Origin: Xiphydria camelus
Taxonomy: Eukaryota; Arthropoda; Insecta; Hymenoptera; Xiphydriidae
Assembly (NCBI GenBank): GCA_963678675.1
Contig: OY783192.1
Coordinates: 31,031,250 to 31,095,249 of the forward strand
DNA: 64,000 bases
Direction: 5' to 3'
Made by a program: the position numbers and the translations under genes. Below are positions 4,537-44,526 of the stretch, piece after piece. Every line of letters begins with the position of its first letter. Within the stretch, counting starts at the first letter, position 1. The notes below the pieces were generated by a model. That model did no database searches and was not told where the DNA came from. It saw only the letters and a program-made list of their open reading frames with translations.

Positions 4537-4830
4537 CGTCTTTCAATTCTATGCACTTTGAAAATAGTTCATAAGAATTTTTCGGGTGATAGTTCGGATA
4601 CATCGATTCAGCAAATGAAAATCACTCAATCAATATTCGATCCTCATTGGTTAATATTTATAATGACATCCGATAAACATCGAATTCTCACTGAGCAACT
4701 ACATCTGCTGGACTAGTGTGCCTTGAATAAAATTGAATATTTCCTGAAAGTCACAAAATCAAAAATACGCCATATCTCTCACGCTCCCCGAAACAACTCT
4801 AAGCAGACAAAAGCTGCGACGCTGAAATAA

Positions 4831-5840: not shown

Positions 5841-6048
5841 ATATATTTTAAGTAAGATAGTGCACGCGTGGGTTCTTAGGGAGAGATAAACATATACATC
5901 CTTATCTCACCATCTAAACTTATAACCACTGCTCTATAGCACATACAGAGTCTTTGTCTTAATCAAAATAGTTAAATTAAATTAACTTATTTTGTATATA
6001 TATAAATACTCCCCAATTCGAAGTCTTCGCCACTATCATAATATCGCA

Positions 6049-6120
6049 GGAGCGTTTCGTCCCGGAGTCGGCCTGTGTACTTGCCAATAAGACTAGGCCG
6101 ACTCCTGCTTCAGACACTCC
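6049..6120 (-). ncRNA. Decayed type III hammerhead ribozyme, copy 2
   Basis: Read on the minus strand: GGAGTGTC (stem III and GUC cleavage triplet, 6120-6113), a stem I hairpin with loop GGAGTCGGCCT, a core replaced by TTGGCAA where CTGATGA is expected (6087-6081), loop II AGGCCGACTCC, then GGGAC, GAAAC and GCTCC. Stem III pairs over 7 bp with one wobble. The 3' half of stem II and the GAAA box are intact, but the CUGAUGA box and the 5' half of stem II are mutated, so this copy should not cleave. The homologous surroundings extend to about 6235 (GCCACCAGATGGCGC-like block). Confidence 0.72.
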
Positions 6121-6289
6121 TGCTGCTGCCCACGAGTGTCGAACGCGGTTGCGGTGTTATGCACCGCACCATTGTTCCATTACTTACGAGAGGGAGAGAG
6201 GGGACGCGCCATCTGGTGCCGGGCCGCCACAATTCCAGTATGCAACACGCGCAGCATCGAGTCTCGCCGAGATCTCGACGATAACACTG

Positions 6290-24600: not shown

Positions 24601-26846
24601 TTACGCTCCGAAGATTCCCTTCACTGTATTGCCCACCCCATCGATGACACCTTGAAGGGTGTGCCTGATGTTCAGACTTCCAGTGTCTCCCAACAAAGGA
24701 TACGTCAAAATCTCTGCCATCCTGCCCACCATTCCTCCGATAATGGTCGAAGAGGATATCTCTGCGCCGAATGTAACACCGGCGACCGCTCCCGTAACCC
24801 CGCCTATCATCACATTCGAGACGTCATCGACAAACCTCGATCTCATGTCCCTTCTTCCACTGCTAATCGAATCTATCCCTTTATTGACCTCCGTGTAAAA
24901 ATTTACCCCAACGTGGTACGTAGCGGTACGATCGGTATCGTTCAGAGCAACCGGAAGCAATCGCCGTAGGGCCTGGTTCATCTTTCCGGCTGTACGACGA
25001 TACTCGTTAATCGTCGCGACGATCTTATCGTCCGCATTGCGTGAAGCATTCTCGTCCATCTGCAGAACCGGTAACAATTTCTGTAAATGATTCTCATCTA
25101 GCATCCTGCGAGCCATGAAGGAGAGATTCACGAAGAGATCGTCATTGAAGAACGCCATTTGAAGAGTCAAATCCTCCTTCATGAGGCTCGACTCGATGAT
25201 CAACAGCCCCTCTAATACATTCTTCCAACAGAGAGTCAGTTCACCCCTATGATCTTCGGGATCGTCAGCCTCGCATTTTCGAAATCTATTGATGATTGAT
25301 CGCCCGAAAACGCTTATCATGTGCCTCAAACGATTTTCCAACTTAACTTCGCGCCAAGTACTCATCAAATCTTTAACCCACTTAAATTGAGGCTGATCCA
25401 CCTGGTCCAAAACTTTATTCAGTAGTGAGTTTACGAAAACCTCGTTGATCGGTCTCAATTTAATGTACGAGTAGAGTAAAGATTGCATGTGAAGTCTGTT
25501 GAACTTCGCCTTTTGCTCCGCAATGTTCCTTATCTCTTGCTGTCGATTAACCGGAAGATTCTCGACATTTCGCAAACCTATCGTATCGATTTCTACCCTC
25601 TGTAAGCTCCCCATGCAACGCGCTACTTCTTCAGTGCGATATAACTCCTCGAAGGTTCGTGGCTTTAGGTCGTACTCAACTCTCAGAGTGTCTTGACATT
25701 CGAGGACGCACAGGTTCAAAGTGAATATTTGATCCTGGTCCGGAGCTATGACCAAGAACTTCGAATCGAGAACTTCCTTAATCAATGTTACCAAATTAGC
25801 TAGAGAAACATCAACTGACACATCCGACGCAAATGTGAATTCGAGGCTCTGTCCGTGCTTTTGCAGGAAAGTTTCGAGGACCAGTAAATTGCCCATGTAG
25901 CTTCTCAGACACTCGTCCCAATTATGCGATGAAATTAATTCCTCCAGGGGCTTAGATGGTTCACAAATACCTCGCAGTCCCTCGCTTCGCAAATCGAAGA
26001 ACCACTTTCTTCTTTCAGTGTCGTTGACGACGCTCTTCCATATGTTGATCTTATTCCTTGCCCAATTGAAATCCGGATGAGCCAACGCATTGTGAATCTG
26101 TCCGTCTGTTAGTTCTTCTATCTTCTCCATGGCGGGTTTGACGCGCTCGCGATTCCCCAAGATCATCGAGATCCTCCACAAAGTTCTCGGTAGGTAAAGA
26201 AGCCACGCCATTTGAGAAATGGGGGTGGAAGTGGTCGCTAGAGTCTTCACACACCCTTTGGGACTTCTCGCGTAGCTCCACAGACCCTGACGAGTGATGT
26301 TAGTTTTGCGCAATTCCTTCATACACTTCATGTACGCAGGCTCCAGGTCGTACAATGCTTCCAAGTATAATTCTTCTTGTTTATTGATGTCGTTCGGTAA
26401 CTGATTATCTGCCTTTACTGCAAGCAATCGTTGGAAACTCTCTGAATTGATTATATCGGCTCTACCTTCACGGCCGAAGACGGCACAAAGCATGTCGTCG
26501 ATTTTTTCAGGCAATCGTGACGTGTCAACGTCATCGAGACACTCTTCTCGATTTCCCTTGACGTTAGTATAGTAGGATTCTAAGAAATCCACTGTTCCGT
26601 TGGATGAAACATTCTCAGGTCTTCGGATAGTCTCTGTACCGCCAGATCGACGACTATCGTCTAAGAGTGGAGCTAGTAAGTTCGAAGCGATATCCTGCAG
26701 GTCTTCGACGTAAGGTCTTAGCAGCGGATTATTTTCGGAAATTGCCAGGTTTCGCAGAACGTCTCGCAAATCGTTCGAAACGTCATTAGTGGGGTGAGAA
26801 TGTAGGGGTCGCACTGCAAACGTTGAACGCGGTAAAGCGAAGCTCC
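24601..26846 (-). CDS. Gene E: large duplicated-module protein, single main exon
   Basis: The open exon is 26846-24601, starting at acceptor TTCTTTTCTAG in phase 1 and encoding SFALPRSTFA and a further 737 residues. There is no in-frame ATG near the 5' end. The 171 bp up to gene D's stop holds only an out-of-frame ATG, so the first coding exon lies elsewhere. The leader exon of gene D (30824-30785, phase 1) would fit and give about 761 aa. Numbering from residue 1 at 26814: N-terminal polar region 1-140; module 1 about 160-350 (C164, SQMAWLLYLP, FNWARN at 249-254, ECL..YMGNLLVLE); module 2 about 400-575 (FKWVKD at 477-482, LCW..VLEGLLIIE); C-terminal hydrophobic Gly-rich block 665-737 with STIIGGMVGR and YPLLGD. 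The same modules occur in gene D. All-helical by composition. Family and function not recognised; export is inferred only through the shared leader. Confidence 0.78.
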
Positions 26847-27017: not shown

Positions 27018-30000
27018 TTATATGGACAGGAGGTTTTTAATATTCGTAATCGCAGTATCCGCCGCACCCTGAACACCCCCCCTGATCGCCCTGCCAGCGA
27101 CATCCCCTACGATCGGATACACAAAGATATCCGTCACTCTTCCGAGTATCCCGGCAATTATAGTCTTTGCGTTCGCATCGGTATCAAATTGAATTCCCGT
27201 CGACGCGGTGATGAGAGATTGTAGCAGGGGGTTCTTCAAGACATCTATTAGCCGCCCGCTTGTTTCTTGCACGTCGTCCCCTCCGTATCGACGAGATGGT
27301 CCCTCTCCTCTTCCATTGGTCTTCACTTTACGCGGTGCATCTTTCTTCATTGGTCTTTTAGGGGCCCGAATGATGTACCGTTTGGATGCACCGAAAATAC
27401 CATCGATACTTGATTCTTCTTGTTGCGATTGCCGATATAAATTGTTCCCATCCTCATCGGCACGTTCTAAACTCGACTTACGAATATCCGGTGCAATGAA
27501 TCGCGGTAAAGTATTCGCTTGAGAAATTGGAGCGACTCCGTCATCAGTTTTCAGTCGTCGCTGGAACTGATGAGGGACCATATCGTTGGAATCCACGTTT
27601 GTTGGTTCCTTGGATTGAATTGGCACAAGGTAATCATCATCGCGGTTGTCTGATGGAAGGGGCAGGGCTGTTGGAGCTTCGACTATTTCGCCCTCCGGGG
27701 CCAGCTGATTTTGAAATTGATCGGAATGCATTTCATCTGAAACTTTGGACGAGGGTTTAGATGTAAAAGGATTGATGAATCGAATGTAAGGTATTTCTTG
27801 AGAATGGACTGCACTCTCATCCAACAATGGATTCTTATTGCTTCGTCTCGACGGAATTGACTCAACGTCATGGTTCGTTGTCATCTCCAAGGCATCATCG
27901 TTCGACATCGGTGGACGAAACGTCGGGTAACAATCATCCACAGAAATATTGGGAACTGCAGCATACACCGCTTGTTCCTCTTCAAGTCGTATTTGGGGAA
28001 TGTATTCATCTTCATCCAGTATTTCTAATTCCGACTCGTCATCGCCGGACGTGGGCGAATGAAGTTCGGGATAAGAATCTTCGGTGGAAGACGTAGGAAT
28101 CTCAGTTGGCATCATTGGTTCCTCTAAATGATTTAATTCGGAATCGTCAGAAGTCTCGAAATTAGTCACTACCGGCGATTCCGCTTCGTAACGATGAGTT
28201 TGAGACCTTCTTCCTGCCTCTTCCAGAATATTACTCCCCGCTTCATCAGCTTGCAAAGGGATATCAGTACCGAACAACTCCTCCGCAGTAACTTCGATGA
28301 CTTTCTTCGCCAGATTCTCGTAGTCGTGAGAATTCGCGGCCATAACACTACCGTCGACCTTGAGTTCATCCCCGAAGAGGCTCTTGCGGAAGCTCGTACT
28401 TTTCCTTCGAGTCGTTTGCGGATCGTCCTTAACCGACAGCTCTTCGTCGACCATATAAACCAAGTTCATCAGGAGAGGCTCGCCCATGAAGATCGTCTGC
28501 AGGGTCACTCCGCTCGTCGCGATAAGAGACTCGACGAGAACGATTTCGTTAACGACCGCCATCCAACAATCGTCGAGAGATCGCCCGGACTCCTCGATTT
28601 CTTCGGAAGCGTCGCAGGGTGACCAAGACGTCTCGTTGCCGACGGTGCGGAAGGTTTCTTCGAGTCTCGCATCAGCATCACTGATCATTTCCAACTCCCG
28701 CCACTTCTTCTCGAATCTCTTGGCCCACGAGAAATCTGGGAAGGTCATCTTCTTCGACACGGCGACGCGGTCGCGAATGATCGGCCGCAGGAACTTTACC
28801 TTCTCATAGTTCCTCAGCAACGATCGCACGAAAACCTCCTCGATCTTCTCCTGAAGCCGCGATACGTTCAGAGAGGTAAACTCTCTCGAAAGCGAAGGAT
28901 TTAACTCGACGAGCGACACCTCGAGGGACTCCACCCGTTCGATCACTTCGCGAACGCACTCCGACGCTTCCGACGAATTCATAACGTCGGTTACGCGAGT
29001 GTTAGCCTTGTCGACTCGTTCTCGAAGAGCGTTCAAACACCTCACCTTGTCGCGCCTCAACTGGTTGACCTTGGACCGCGCGATGGACAGTTCGTCCTTC
29101 TGTTCCAAAGTTTTCCGTGTCTCTTGAGTTTTTGTACTCTTCAGGGCGCTCTTCACGGCCGCCAAAAGCCGTTGGAACGTATCGCCGTCCTCGAAGAATT
29201 CGTGACTCAACGTTTTCCCATCTTCCCGCAACGTATCTTCAACGATCAACAGATTTCCAATGATGGTAGTCAGGCAATCCTTGGATCGTGATCCACGAAG
29301 GAGCTCACGGAGTTGAACGGACAATTGACACTGCTCTTCCAACCGCGGAGCCTCCCTCATCATTTTCTCCAAACGCTCGTCACTCTTCTCAGGCGTCTTC
29401 CTCCATTCCTCTGCTATATTTTTCGCCCACTGAAATTCCGGGCGATCCCAATTCTGCAACACTCCAGCTCTGGTCAGTATCTTGGCCAATTCGCTCATTC
29501 GTTGGTACACTTTCGTGGCTCTCTCCAGGAAGCGCAGCGTCTCGGGAAACGCCACCAACCAGACGACCTGCGAAAGTGCATCAGATTTAGCGACGAATTT
29601 CGACACGCATTGGGCGTGATAGTAGATAGCCTCAGTCTCGTCGAAAAGCTCGTTCGCCGTATCCAGACATCCTTGTATTTTGGGACGTATGTTTTCCAGC
29701 GTCTCTTCGAAGGCTTTCTGGTCGTTCTTGTCACTAGAGTCGATCGCTTCGACGTCAATGGCATCGACAAATCCCTTAACGATTTTCGAACCGAAATATT
29801 GGCAGAGCGAGTCAAGTAGGGCCAGGGCGGACGGGTTAAAATGTCCCATAGCCTTCGGCGGTCTTTCTATACATTTCTCCAGTAACGAATCGTCCTCCGG
29901 TTTGGCTATCAAGATTTCACGATCGTCTTCAGCGTCTGCGAGTGAATTATCGGGATCATCGGACGTTTGGTCCTCGTCCACTGCGGGAGATCTTTTTATT

Positions 30001-30824
30001 CTCTCTTTCGCTACGTGTCGATCGATCTCGAAAGACGGGACGGTCTTAGTACGACGATCGGGAATCGACTGCGACAGCGTAAAAAGTCCTAAAAAATAAA
30101 TATCCTCTCTCGTCAAGAATCCCTTGCCGCGGAATCCGGAAATGACGTCGAAGTTTTCGCACTGGGGAGTGACCTTATGAAAGGTGGATTCTACGCGTAA
30201 TTCTCATCGGCGATTGCGTTTAGGAATTTCTCTCTCGGCGAGTCTACAGAACAAAAAGTAACTCCCTAGATCGGATCTTCGTTCGCTCGATTTCTCCTTG
30301 TCGGTTGGGATCTTCTTCGTCAGCGATAATACGATCGAATGACGGATGGGAATTCTCGTGGAGTCGCATACACCGCGAAGTCGTTTGGTTGTGGGAATCA
30401 TTTAATTGCGTTTTCTCGGTGTTCCTCTTTCAATTACACTTCGATACGCGTACACGCACTCATCGTATGCCCCCCCCCCCCCCCCCCCCCCCTCGGATGG
30501 CAGTTATATTGCGGCGCGATCGGATCACGATTTACGATTTGAAGATAATAACGTTTCATTACCGCGTAACGAAGTTTAGAATCGATCAGGCGCAACGAAG
30601 TAAGGCGATTTCATCTCGCTCTTGCGTTTTACTATTTCGGTTATATTTTCCTCTTTTTTTTTTTAATTGTGGCAATAGAGTCTTTAAAAATATCACGTGG
30701 ATTGCGCGAGGGCAATGATCGGTGGCCAATGATCGCAATAATTCCGTGGCGAATTAATGATTCTGGTAAATTTGACAAACTCACCCAAAAGGAGAATCAA
30801 AGTAGTCGAAAGAGGCCGAACCAT
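27018..30824 (-). CDS. Gene D: large secreted duplicated-module protein, 1036 aa
   Basis: Exon 1 is 30824-30785 (MVRPLSTTLILLL, donor GGTGAGT, phase 1). Exon 2 is 30088-27018 (acceptor ATTTTTTAG). The leader continues over the junction as LLLGLFTLSQSIPD, a good signal peptide. RIKRS soon after (about residues 43-47) is a possible furin-type site. In precursor numbering: module 1 about 150-325 (C154, SQVVWLVAFP, FQWAKN 232-237, CL..IIGNLLIVE); module 2 about 390-565 (FSWAKR 466-471, DCW..VVNEIVLVE); an acidic, Ser/Pro-rich disordered insert about 565-910 that gene E lacks; a basic patch near 915-950; and a C-terminal hydrophobic block with TIIAGILGR and YPIVGD as in E. The start is chosen by ATG context (GCCATGG), donor and signal peptide. 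Intron 1 is 696 bp. Family not recognised; a secreted or matrix-associated role is inferred. Confidence 0.85.
30470..30492. repeat. Poly(C)/poly(G) run of 23 in gene D intron
   Basis: 23 consecutive C on the plus strand, so a G-run within the first intron of gene D. It could form G-rich structure in the transcript. Length is likely polymorphic and prone to sequencing error. Confidence 0.8.
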
Positions 30825-43568: not shown

Positions 43569-43619
43569 GGTTTATCTCAATATACATATCGATACCTGAA
43601 AGCAACAGTGAGATAAACC

Positions 43620-43790
43620 TTTTGAGCTAACTATGTCAAACGTAAGTTAACACCGGCCTTTACACAATGTAACACTGAGTTTCCCTTTTTGACAGTATTT
43701 TAAAAATGTATTTCTGCCGAGATATCTCAGTGTTGCATTGTGTAAAGGCCGGTTTTAGCTTACGTTTGACATACATAGTTAGCTCTGTGG
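43620..43790. repeat. Foldback, GAGCTAACTATGTCAAACGTAAG arms
   Basis: AGCTAACTATG.TCAAACGTAA and CCGGCCTTTACACAATG at the left pair with CATTGTGTAAAGGCCGG and TTACGTTTGACATACATAGT at the right. The spacer is about 60 bp. Confidence 0.75.
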
Positions 43791-43911
43791 CGACCCGTCA
43801 CGCTGCGGCGGCCTGACGCCAGATGGCGCCGACCCTCTCGGCCCTCGACTCACGGCTCCCGGCCCACGGCTCTCGGCTCTCGATAGTGGTCCGACGACGG
43901 GCAGTCATTAT

Positions 43912-43992
43912 ATGAAGACCTCGGCTGTAAAACCTGTTAACTTGCATGGAACTTCATATCAGTTAACAGGTTTTACAGCCGAGGTCTTCATA
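43912..43992. repeat. 81-bp perfect hairpin inserted in the ribozyme repeat
   Basis: 30-bp arms beginning ATGAAGACCTCGGCTG are exact complements around a 21-nt loop (TTGCATGGAACTTCATATCA region). The copy at 6049-6235 lacks this hairpin at the matching place, so it is probably a later insertion. The perfect arms suggest it is young or gene-converted. Confidence 0.75.
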
Positions 43993-44029
43993 CAAGACCG
44001 CAATTGCCCGCCTCTTACGGAGGGCCACA

Positions 44030-44100
44030 GAGCGTCTAAGGCAGGAGTCGGCCTAGCTTTACTGATGAGTCCACAGGCCGACTCCGAGTTGAAACGCTCC
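44030..44100 (+). ncRNA. Type III hammerhead ribozyme, copy 1
   Basis: Order: stem III 5' strand GAGCGU (44030-44035) with cleavage C at 44036; stem I UAAGGC (44037-44042) with GCUUUA (44056-44061); catalytic box CUGAUGA (44062-44068); stem II GUCC (44069-44072); loop II; GAAA (44091-44094); stem III 3' strand ACGCUC (44094-44099). Stem III is 6 bp and stem I 6 bp with one G.U. Both conserved boxes and the GUC triplet are exact. Loop I GGAGUCGGCCU is fully complementary over 11 nt to loop II AGGCCGACUCC. Stem II is weakened because its 3' side reads GAGUU where GGGAC would pair. Known hammerheads process transcripts of satellites and retroelements; here host processing is inferred. It belongs to a dispersed repeat (second copy at 6049-6120). 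Confidence 0.85.
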
Positions 44101-44265
44101 GTCGATTAGATGGCGACCACATCTTTTCGCCACATCGTAAATGGGTTTTGATCCAATCGGTGGTATCGGACCTAAAATTGGTATTTTTTGGGGTTTATCT
44201 CACTGTTGCTTTCAGGTATCGATATACTCGTTCGCATGCATAAGTGCAGAGATAAGACGATGGTA

Positions 44266-44526
44266 CATTTGAGGGGTATAGATGCAAAAGCCGCCAAGTC
44301 ACATAGTCACATTTTTGTGAAGTCTGAGTTGGATACGGGAGTTTGTTCTTTATAAGTACGTGCATAAGGTCGAACATAATTTAGGTGCAAATTCCACTTT
44401 ACACCGTCAATAATATAAGGTAGAAAATACGCTTGCAGCTGCACGTACTTATAAGGAACAAATTTCCGTGTCTGACTCGGATTTCACAAAAATGTGACTT
44501 GGCGGCTTTGCATCTATACCCCTTAT
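44266..44526. repeat. Foldback repeat with ~85-bp arms
   Basis: AGGGGTATAGATGCAAA, GCCGCCAAGTCACAT and TTATAAGTACGTGC at the left are inverted at the right (GCACGTACTTATAAG, ATGTGACTTGGCGGC, TTTGCATCTATACCCCT). Spacer about 80 bp. Confidence 0.75.

Follow-up and report, generated by a model that had tools for sequence, protein, structure and literature searches.

Plant LTR retrozymes are reported to give rise to circular RNAs by means of two ribozymes per transcript, and viroid-like agents have been suggested to stem from them (Cervera et al, 2016; PMC4918200). They are described as carrying a hammerhead in each LTR, of type III (PMC7229834), with LTRs of a few hundred bp around a non-coding centre, 4-bp target duplications, and a PBS and a PPT resembling those of Ty3/gypsy; the unit measures 697-776 bp in Jatropha, and the ribozyme of plant retrozymes is predicted to be blocked in the full RNA (PMC4918200). 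The insect family described below resembles them in these respects and differs in its host, in a PBS matching tRNA-Trp where theirs matches tRNA-Met, in LTRs of ~250 bp (214 bp in L079, a copy of a second subfamily) where theirs span 300-400 bp (PMC4918200), and in the 11-nt complement shared by its loops of 13 and 14 nt. Animal hammerhead repeats, by contrast, are described as type I and without LTRs, PBS or PPT (PMC7229834, PMC4918200); they measure 150-450 bp and are low in GC (PMC7229834), whereas the insect family has type III hammerheads, LTRs, a PBS, a PPT and a GC of ~0.60 (one copy). Common to both are small non-coding hammerhead repeats and tandem copies, and circular RNAs have been reported for the animal repeats (PMC7229834).

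Type III hammerheads are described from HDV-like agents and, in insects, from termite and fly genomes, with a long helix I containing an internal loop and a 4-nt GCCR/YGGC contact; those of termite genomes are presented as isolated motifs, and the account given there reports none in the hymenopterans examined by its authors when searching with this architecture (PMC7936874). In the present family, stems of 6 and 4 bp with the 11-nt complement are found instead, within LTRs. Small LTR elements lacking a described ribozyme are a further point of comparison. PbTRIM of ants is a small non-coding LTR element with 4-bp duplications, a PBS and a PPT, like the present one, and is set apart by its description, namely a tRNA-Leu PBS and LTRs of 152-184 bp; the main text of that paper nowhere uses the word "ribozyme" (PMC3532108). 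Helenus TRIMs, too, are LTR elements of small size whose LTR contains a structured RNA; in animals they have 4-bp duplications, and some of their hymenopteran families are described as using tRNA-Trp, but the structure in their LTR is a tRNA-like sequence (PMC10886601). ARAGORN found no tRNA in L090, L093, L094 and L099, all element-bearing loci, although degenerate promoter boxes would escape it.

Among the matches listed from open PMC papers, none described an animal LTR retrozyme with a type III hammerhead. One review refers to unpublished results that concern type III elements in insects and raises horizontal transfer to plants from type III bearers, e.g. bacteria or insects (PMC7761336).

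The hammerhead-like stretch of the window and its surroundings

Inspection of the sequence places a type III hammerhead layout at 44030-44099 (+) of the window, i.e. the whole 64,000-nucleotide stretch that was analysed; we call it copy A. As the preliminary description had it, GAGCGTC (44030-44036), a stem I hairpin, CTGATGA and GAAACGCTC (44091-44099) follow each other in this order and place, stems III and I both close over 6 bp, and the two loops share an exact 11-nt complement. Stem III is formed by GAGCGT (44030-44035) and ACGCTC (44094-44099), with 6/6 pairs, and the C at 44036 is the predicted cleavage-site C17 of the GUC, which we take it to be by analogy to known hammerheads. Stem I pairs TAAGGC (44037-44042) with GCTTTA (44056-44061), 6/6 with one G.U, and closes a 13-nt loop I (44043-44055) holding one arm of the complement (44044-44054); the other arm (44075-44085) lies in the 14-nt loop II (44073-44086). 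The catalytic core CTGATGA (44062-44068) differs from the family form CTGACGA at the fifth base, which is free in hammerheads (CUGAnGA), and the second part of the core, GAA, occupies 44091-44093. Copy A has the core CUGANGA, the GAA and an NUH cleavage site. The stem II hairpin that had also been announced is not formed: GTCC (44069-44072) faces AGTT (44087-44090), where the family has GGAC, with 2/4 pairs left. Three of the five substitutions that separate copy A from the family form fall in this strand and break stem II, so that this locus is not expected to cleave after 44036. The arrangement of three stems with stem III open and stems I and II as hairpins is found in the family and not in copy A, which, on its letters, has no formed stem II. 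The identification as a type III hammerhead with complementary loops was thus right for the family, while copy A itself is broken; we read 44030-44099 as a degenerate version of a self-cutting RNA whose complete form, by sequence, is found elsewhere in the genome, in the LTRs of a small non-coding mobile element.

The motif of copy A is above chance. A type III descriptor without any demand on stem II, with stem III of at least 5 bp and stem I of at least 3 bp, gave one match in the window, compared with an average of 0.063 over 300 first-order Markov shuffles, and requiring at least 6 bp for both stems lowered the shuffle mean to 0.0067 (2/300 shuffles); note that this test is post hoc and that the window is one of many. 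The descriptor found no hammerhead on the minus strand of the window, where weak matches of the family model correspond to the palindrome. An 80-nt stretch of copy A folds best as one long hairpin (-35.6 kcal/mol, z -4.5 versus 200 shuffles), i.e. the competing long hairpin foreseen in the preliminary description is the predicted minimum-energy fold.

A comparison with the Rfam hammerhead covariance models had been suggested in the same description. No Rfam match reached the gathering score in the whole window and no hammerhead appeared up to E 10 in 43700-44300 (601 bases); on 44020-44110 alone (91 bases), Hammerhead_3 gave 12.5 bits (E 2.9, gathering 48.5) in another register, without the GAA. 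As controls we used hammerhead-like stretches with a canonical core and stem II from viral contigs, for which 17 loci were found. At the gathering score, 0 hammerheads were obtained in 9 of these 17 loci, and relaxed settings gave 24.6-32.5 bits in 4 of the 17, above the score of copy A, plus one further match of 44.2 bits in L008. Since the control stretches also miss the gathering score, which is a curator's cut-off without the status of a defining trait, we judge it not decisive here. Eight complete family copies in L041, L042, L043 and L052 reached 21.9 bits under relaxed settings, with a type I model and below gathering, and up to E 0.5 there was no hammerhead row for L023 (complete) or L019 (broken). 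The match in L008, an IMG/VR contig, is a good type III hammerhead match in its own right (4748-4803), and the same contig has a second hammerhead match at 427-485.

The preliminary description overlooked the origin of copy A in a mobile element, of which it is a solo-LTR relic, and the presence of complete ribozymes at other places in the genome. BLAST with the intact LTR of L042 delimits this relic to 43786-44134 (+): LTR positions 1-121 align to 43786-43927 (70%) and 105-250 to 43990-44134 (90%), the two parts being split by a nested palindromic insertion (43908-43995, no strand assigned) with 35-nt arms that are 97% complementary. The internal region of the retrozyme has no BLAST match in the window. 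The relic is enclosed by perfect 34-nt terminal inverted repeats (43586-43619 and 44192-44225) and adjoined by a further palindrome (43627-43778, 91% complementary), so that 43586-44225 contains nested insertions, possibly TIR elements. A MITE or fold-back origin of copy A was considered, given these repeats and the nested palindrome, and rejected, as the LTR homology explains the ribozyme part.

A BLAST of the surroundings of copy A against the window returned a diverged match on the minus strand (6119-6043, 80.5%), which belongs to a second LTR relic at 6037-6231 (-), hereafter copy B. It is closer to L079, a copy of the second subfamily (LTR 1-193 aligned to 6231-6037, 74%), than to L042 (LTR 42-227 aligned to 6221-6037, 71%). 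Its decayed hammerhead (6050-6119, -) has lost the core CTGANGA, which reads TTGGCAA, and keeps the GAA, within GAAAC, and both 11-nt arms; 5/6 pairs remain in stem I, 3/4 in stem II and 6/6 in stem III, and copies A and B show 0/13 differences in loop I and 0/14 in loop II. Copy B scores 84.7 bits in model R1, by construction since it was included in that model. Taken alone, copy B, with its core lost and its hairpin kept, had seemed to speak against a ribozyme, a reading that was reversed when both relics were compared column by column: for stem II, copy B supplies the 3' strand GGAC and copy A the 5' strand, the core also being preserved in copy A, and stems I and III resolve to full pairing. 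The two relics together suggest an ancestor with an intact type III hammerhead, deduced ahead of the genome result, and this ancestor is identical to the genome copies except at the free core base (C instead of T). Both window copies are dead solo LTRs. Exact copies of the hairpin arms at the set spacing were absent from IMG/VR and GTDB genomes.

Paired-LTR elements in the genome

We searched the assembly from which the window comes (357 Mb, 38 contigs) and scored the best 40 of 1362 first-look candidates, among which several match pairs lay on one strand ~815 bp apart; note that 1362, as well as the 1116 given below, are numbers of first-look candidates and not of copies. The genome scan proposed in the preliminary description thereby uncovered complete ribozymes elsewhere in the same assembly, upon which a chance motif was rejected. 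Twenty regions were fetched and the 14 with two clear direct LTRs were analysed, L048, L050, L053, L054, L056 and L057 (disturbed, single or cut copies) being excluded from the counts of 14 and 28 that follow. The layout of an LTR retrozyme, two direct LTRs with a type III hammerhead in each, was found in 14/14 of the paired elements. All 28 LTRs contain a complete hammerhead with stems of 6, 4 and 6 bp, 11-nt complementary loops, the core, the GUC site and 16/16 stem pairs; 27 are identical and one has a G-C changed to G.U. The two LTRs of an element are 97.6-100% identical. They measure 250 bp, from TGTGGCG to CGCCACA, where our script found both ends; L052 starts with TGTAGCG, and the 3' LTR end of L051 is altered. 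The cleavage sites are 811-819 nt apart in 12/14 elements, 775 in L052 and 619 in L043.

The non-coding nature of the centre was judged from L042 alone, with stop-to-stop frames of up to 184 aa. In this copy, GC amounts to 0.62 in the LTR, 0.59 in the internal part and 0.36 in the flanks, and a TATA-like box, a putative promoter, lies at LTR positions 103-111, ~40 nt upstream of the cleavage site. The predicted circular unit, for which one copy was compared with 40 Markov shuffles, is only mildly stabler than these (z -1.5).

The PBS, TGGTGACCCCGACGTGAT, begins after one base 3' of the LTR. In L042 it is the reverse complement of the 3' end plus CCA of one of the genome's own tRNA-Trp genes (18/18), and the match is 18/18 in 13/14 elements, with one mismatch in L043; two tRNA-Trp(CCA) genes were found, in 2 of 9 short genome stretches, and none in 12 other loci. 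It does not fit tRNA-Met as in the plant elements, and we treat the tRNA-Met PBS as a lineage trait that does not define LTR retrozymes. The PPT, AGGGGGGGAG, precedes the 3' LTR in 12/14 elements, with one-base variants in L043 and L052. Target duplications were detected by script in 12/14 rows. L044, L045 and L055 are one insertion in duplicated flanks, which reduces the 14 elements to 12 independent insertions, of which 10 show duplications of at least 4 bp, one of these being a 6-bp duplication in an AT repeat. The script missed L051 owing to its altered 3' LTR end, and by eye AACCT (5 bp) is found at both ends. In L041, no target duplication was found, and the 3' LTR is extended by 19 nt of PBS sequence that separate it from the flank, perhaps by read-through into the primer site. 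Overall, the insect family shares the plant LTR retrozyme anatomy tested except for the tRNA-Met PBS. The traits of animal non-LTR retrozymes (type I, no LTR, PBS or PPT) and those of PbTRIM (tRNA-Leu PBS, LTR of 152-184 bp) were not found in the paired elements.

Second subfamily, loop conservation and a proposed partner element

A search with copy B gave 45 matches including itself, of 1116 first-look candidates, the others being 74-87% identical to it. Of the 29 other loci kept, 23 have at least two ribozyme-like 70-mers on one strand, and in 17/23 these are spaced by 753-789; note that some loci overlap. We compared one copy of each subfamily, L079 for the second and L042 for the first. 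Their ribozymes are identical (70/70), whereas in the aligned columns identity falls to 79.8% for the part of the LTR upstream of it (46 gap columns; Fisher p 1.5e-5) and to 81.3% for the internal part (162 gap columns; Fisher p 2.6e-6). The 34-36 nt that follow the ribozyme on its 3' side are near-identical too (33/34), which makes the exchange of a ~105-nt module by template switching a live alternative to selection; part of the ribozyme conservation could come from swapping of such a module between the subfamilies.

Among the own-genome loci, we collected 82 distinct 190-nt contexts of ribozyme-like 70-mers, in which the LTR pair of a young element, like identical LTRs from separate elements, partly collapses and from which indel-bearing or locus-end matches were left out. 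The core and 16/16 pairs are present in 67 of them and not in the 15 others, which include copies A and B; as the copies are best matches to each query, the complete fraction 67/82 is biased upward and is not a genome frequency. The loop complement characterises the family, all 11 pairs (G.U allowed) being kept in 62 of the 67 intact contexts. In these 67, single-sided breaks occur, and the loops showed no compensatory change. The stems offer little covariation across copies, to which the preliminary description had also turned: a single two-sided change was seen, in stem III of L067, a copy outside the 82 that is otherwise damaged, with stem I one base short and two extra bases in loop II.

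In L085 (minus), three ribozymes follow one another at intervals of 787 nt, at 36, 823 and 1610, within an LTR-internal-LTR-internal-LTR tandem. Unequal exchange would be expected to leave such an arrangement, and so would an RNA in circular or multimeric form. In L079, a partial ribozyme with a foreign 5' half is seen at position 2532 (+), ~140 nt behind the second ribozyme of the element.

The tRNA-Trp 15-mer occurs 289 times in the genome (reversed control, 0), and some of these occurrences belong to further LTR elements that have this PBS in common with the retrozyme (L098, L100, L101). The frames of L098 encode a DUF7041 gag (E 1.8e-23) and a protease-like match to PF13975 (24 bits, below the cut-off of 28.2). 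L099 is a mosaic in which an LTR end and PBS of that element are followed by the retrozyme internal part, a retrozyme LTR with a complete ribozyme, a PBS and the gag/protease part of that element; its similarity to that element is 99.3% over 147 nt for the LTR end and PBS and 98.6% over 1,529 nt for the gag/protease part. Its joints coincide with the PBS common to both, suggestive of co-packaging with that element and of a switch of template, and the mosaic points to the gag/protease-bearing LTR element as the partner of the retrozyme. Of the 45 rows of relatives of the DUF7041 gag, 9 name an organism, all 9 an arthropod: Trachymyrmex (twice), Polyergus and Ooceraea, which we take to be ants, and organisms that we likewise take to be a wasp, a bug, a beetle (two rows) and a tick. 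The odorant-receptor family 7tm_6, which is specific to insects, has 128 matches in the genome and none in any of 14 control genomes, which makes the host an insect, probably an ant or something close to one.

Proposed cycle and alternative explanations

The LTR pairs, the short target duplications, the tRNA-Trp PBS, the PPT, the complete hammerheads and the mosaic L099 lead us to conclude that the family is very probably a small non-coding LTR retrotransposon with a type III hammerhead in each LTR, i.e. an LTR retrozyme, in an insect. Transcription would start near the TATA-like box, upstream of the ribozyme, so that the transcript would hold two hammerheads; these would cut out a unit of ~815 nt (~780 in the second subfamily, about 780-820 nt overall), which the host would ligate into a circle. 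The circle, or a linear form, would then be reverse transcribed from tRNA-Trp by the enzymes of the partner and integrated.

The loop complement probably gives the same stretch two forms, one active early and the other locked later. The calculated energies are -31.8 kcal/mol for the long hairpin and -15.8 for the open-loop hammerhead, a gap of 16 kcal/mol; the 11-bp loop duplex amounts to -22.3 and its best 7-bp part to -12.9 kcal/mol, such that a hammerhead with a partial 7-bp kiss approaches the energy of the long hairpin, penalties uncounted. For loops of 13 and 14 nt, a kiss over all 11 bp seems to us to strain the geometry. Stepwise folding begins with the stem I hairpin, and the long hairpin appears when the second arm has emerged. 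From these energies and this order of folding we propose that activity comes early and locking later: the hammerhead would be active during transcription, perhaps with a partial loop-loop helix, and the stable long hairpin would afterwards bury the core and keep the circle from re-opening. The complete picture, of animal LTR retrozymes that move via a self-cleaved circular RNA with a DUF7041-gag partner and a two-state ribozyme whose loops aid the active fold and then lock the circle, is put forward tentatively, as quite possible though short of probable.

Three other explanations were weighed against this picture. That the family is an ordinary TRIM with an LTR hairpin only, the hammerhead reading being due to chance, might seem attractive given that the long hairpin is the minimum-energy fold and that TRIMs with 4-bp duplications are described in ants (PMC3532108). 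We regard it as highly improbable, since a mere hairpin needs neither the core, nor the GAA, nor stems I and II, while core, GUC, three stems and 16 pairs are complete in every one of the 28 LTRs of the paired elements; moreover, the arrangement was deduced from two broken relics ahead of the genome match, and the chance rate of 0.0067 in the window holds even without stem II. A second explanation accepts the ribozyme and has it trim a normal LTR transcript, or regards it as left over from past use, the element moving by plain retrotransposition of a linear RNA without circles. The PBS, PPT, LTRs and short duplications are indeed those of ordinary LTR elements, the LTR pairs are nearly identical and the PBS is common to the partner element, but cutting in both LTRs would remove the template ends needed for LTR strand transfer, and plant retrozymes of the same layout are reported to make circles (PMC4918200). 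The tandem copy L085 also speaks against it, even though unequal recombination yields tandems as well, and we hold this explanation to be unlikely.

Less easily set aside, though still doubtful in our opinion, is the proposal that the loop complement has no catalytic role and that the long hairpin is kept for packaging, dimerisation or small-RNA processing. Copy B keeps the hairpin arms though its core is lost, the arms form in the lowest-energy fold, and miRNA-precursor models match copy B weakly, with every score below cut-off. Against it, arms, core and stems are kept together in the complete copies of both subfamilies, and loop-loop helices have been described as predicted in ~40% of hammerheads and, when tested, as needed for fast cleavage (PMC3088659).

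If the LTR retrozyme reading is true, a young type III family in an insect would mean that this layout is no speciality of plants, and insect LTR retrozymes would bear on the question of the origin of the plant ones. The exact 11-nt loop complement, kept in two subfamilies, offers a putative switch of natural origin, from cleavage to a locked hairpin, that lends itself to direct testing.

Elsewhere in the window, two neighbouring long ORFs lie on the minus strand at 24601-26814 (737 aa) and 27018-30116 (1032 aa), with C-terminal ends that look alike by eye; Pfam gave no family for either, and none of the 8000 candidates scored was a homologue of the 737-aa protein. The sequence CCAGATGGCGC, which we take to resemble a CTCF-type site, is found at 43819-43829 (+) and 6206-6216 (-), both inside the LTR relics, and no other place in the window comes within one mismatch of it (shuffle mean 0.56).
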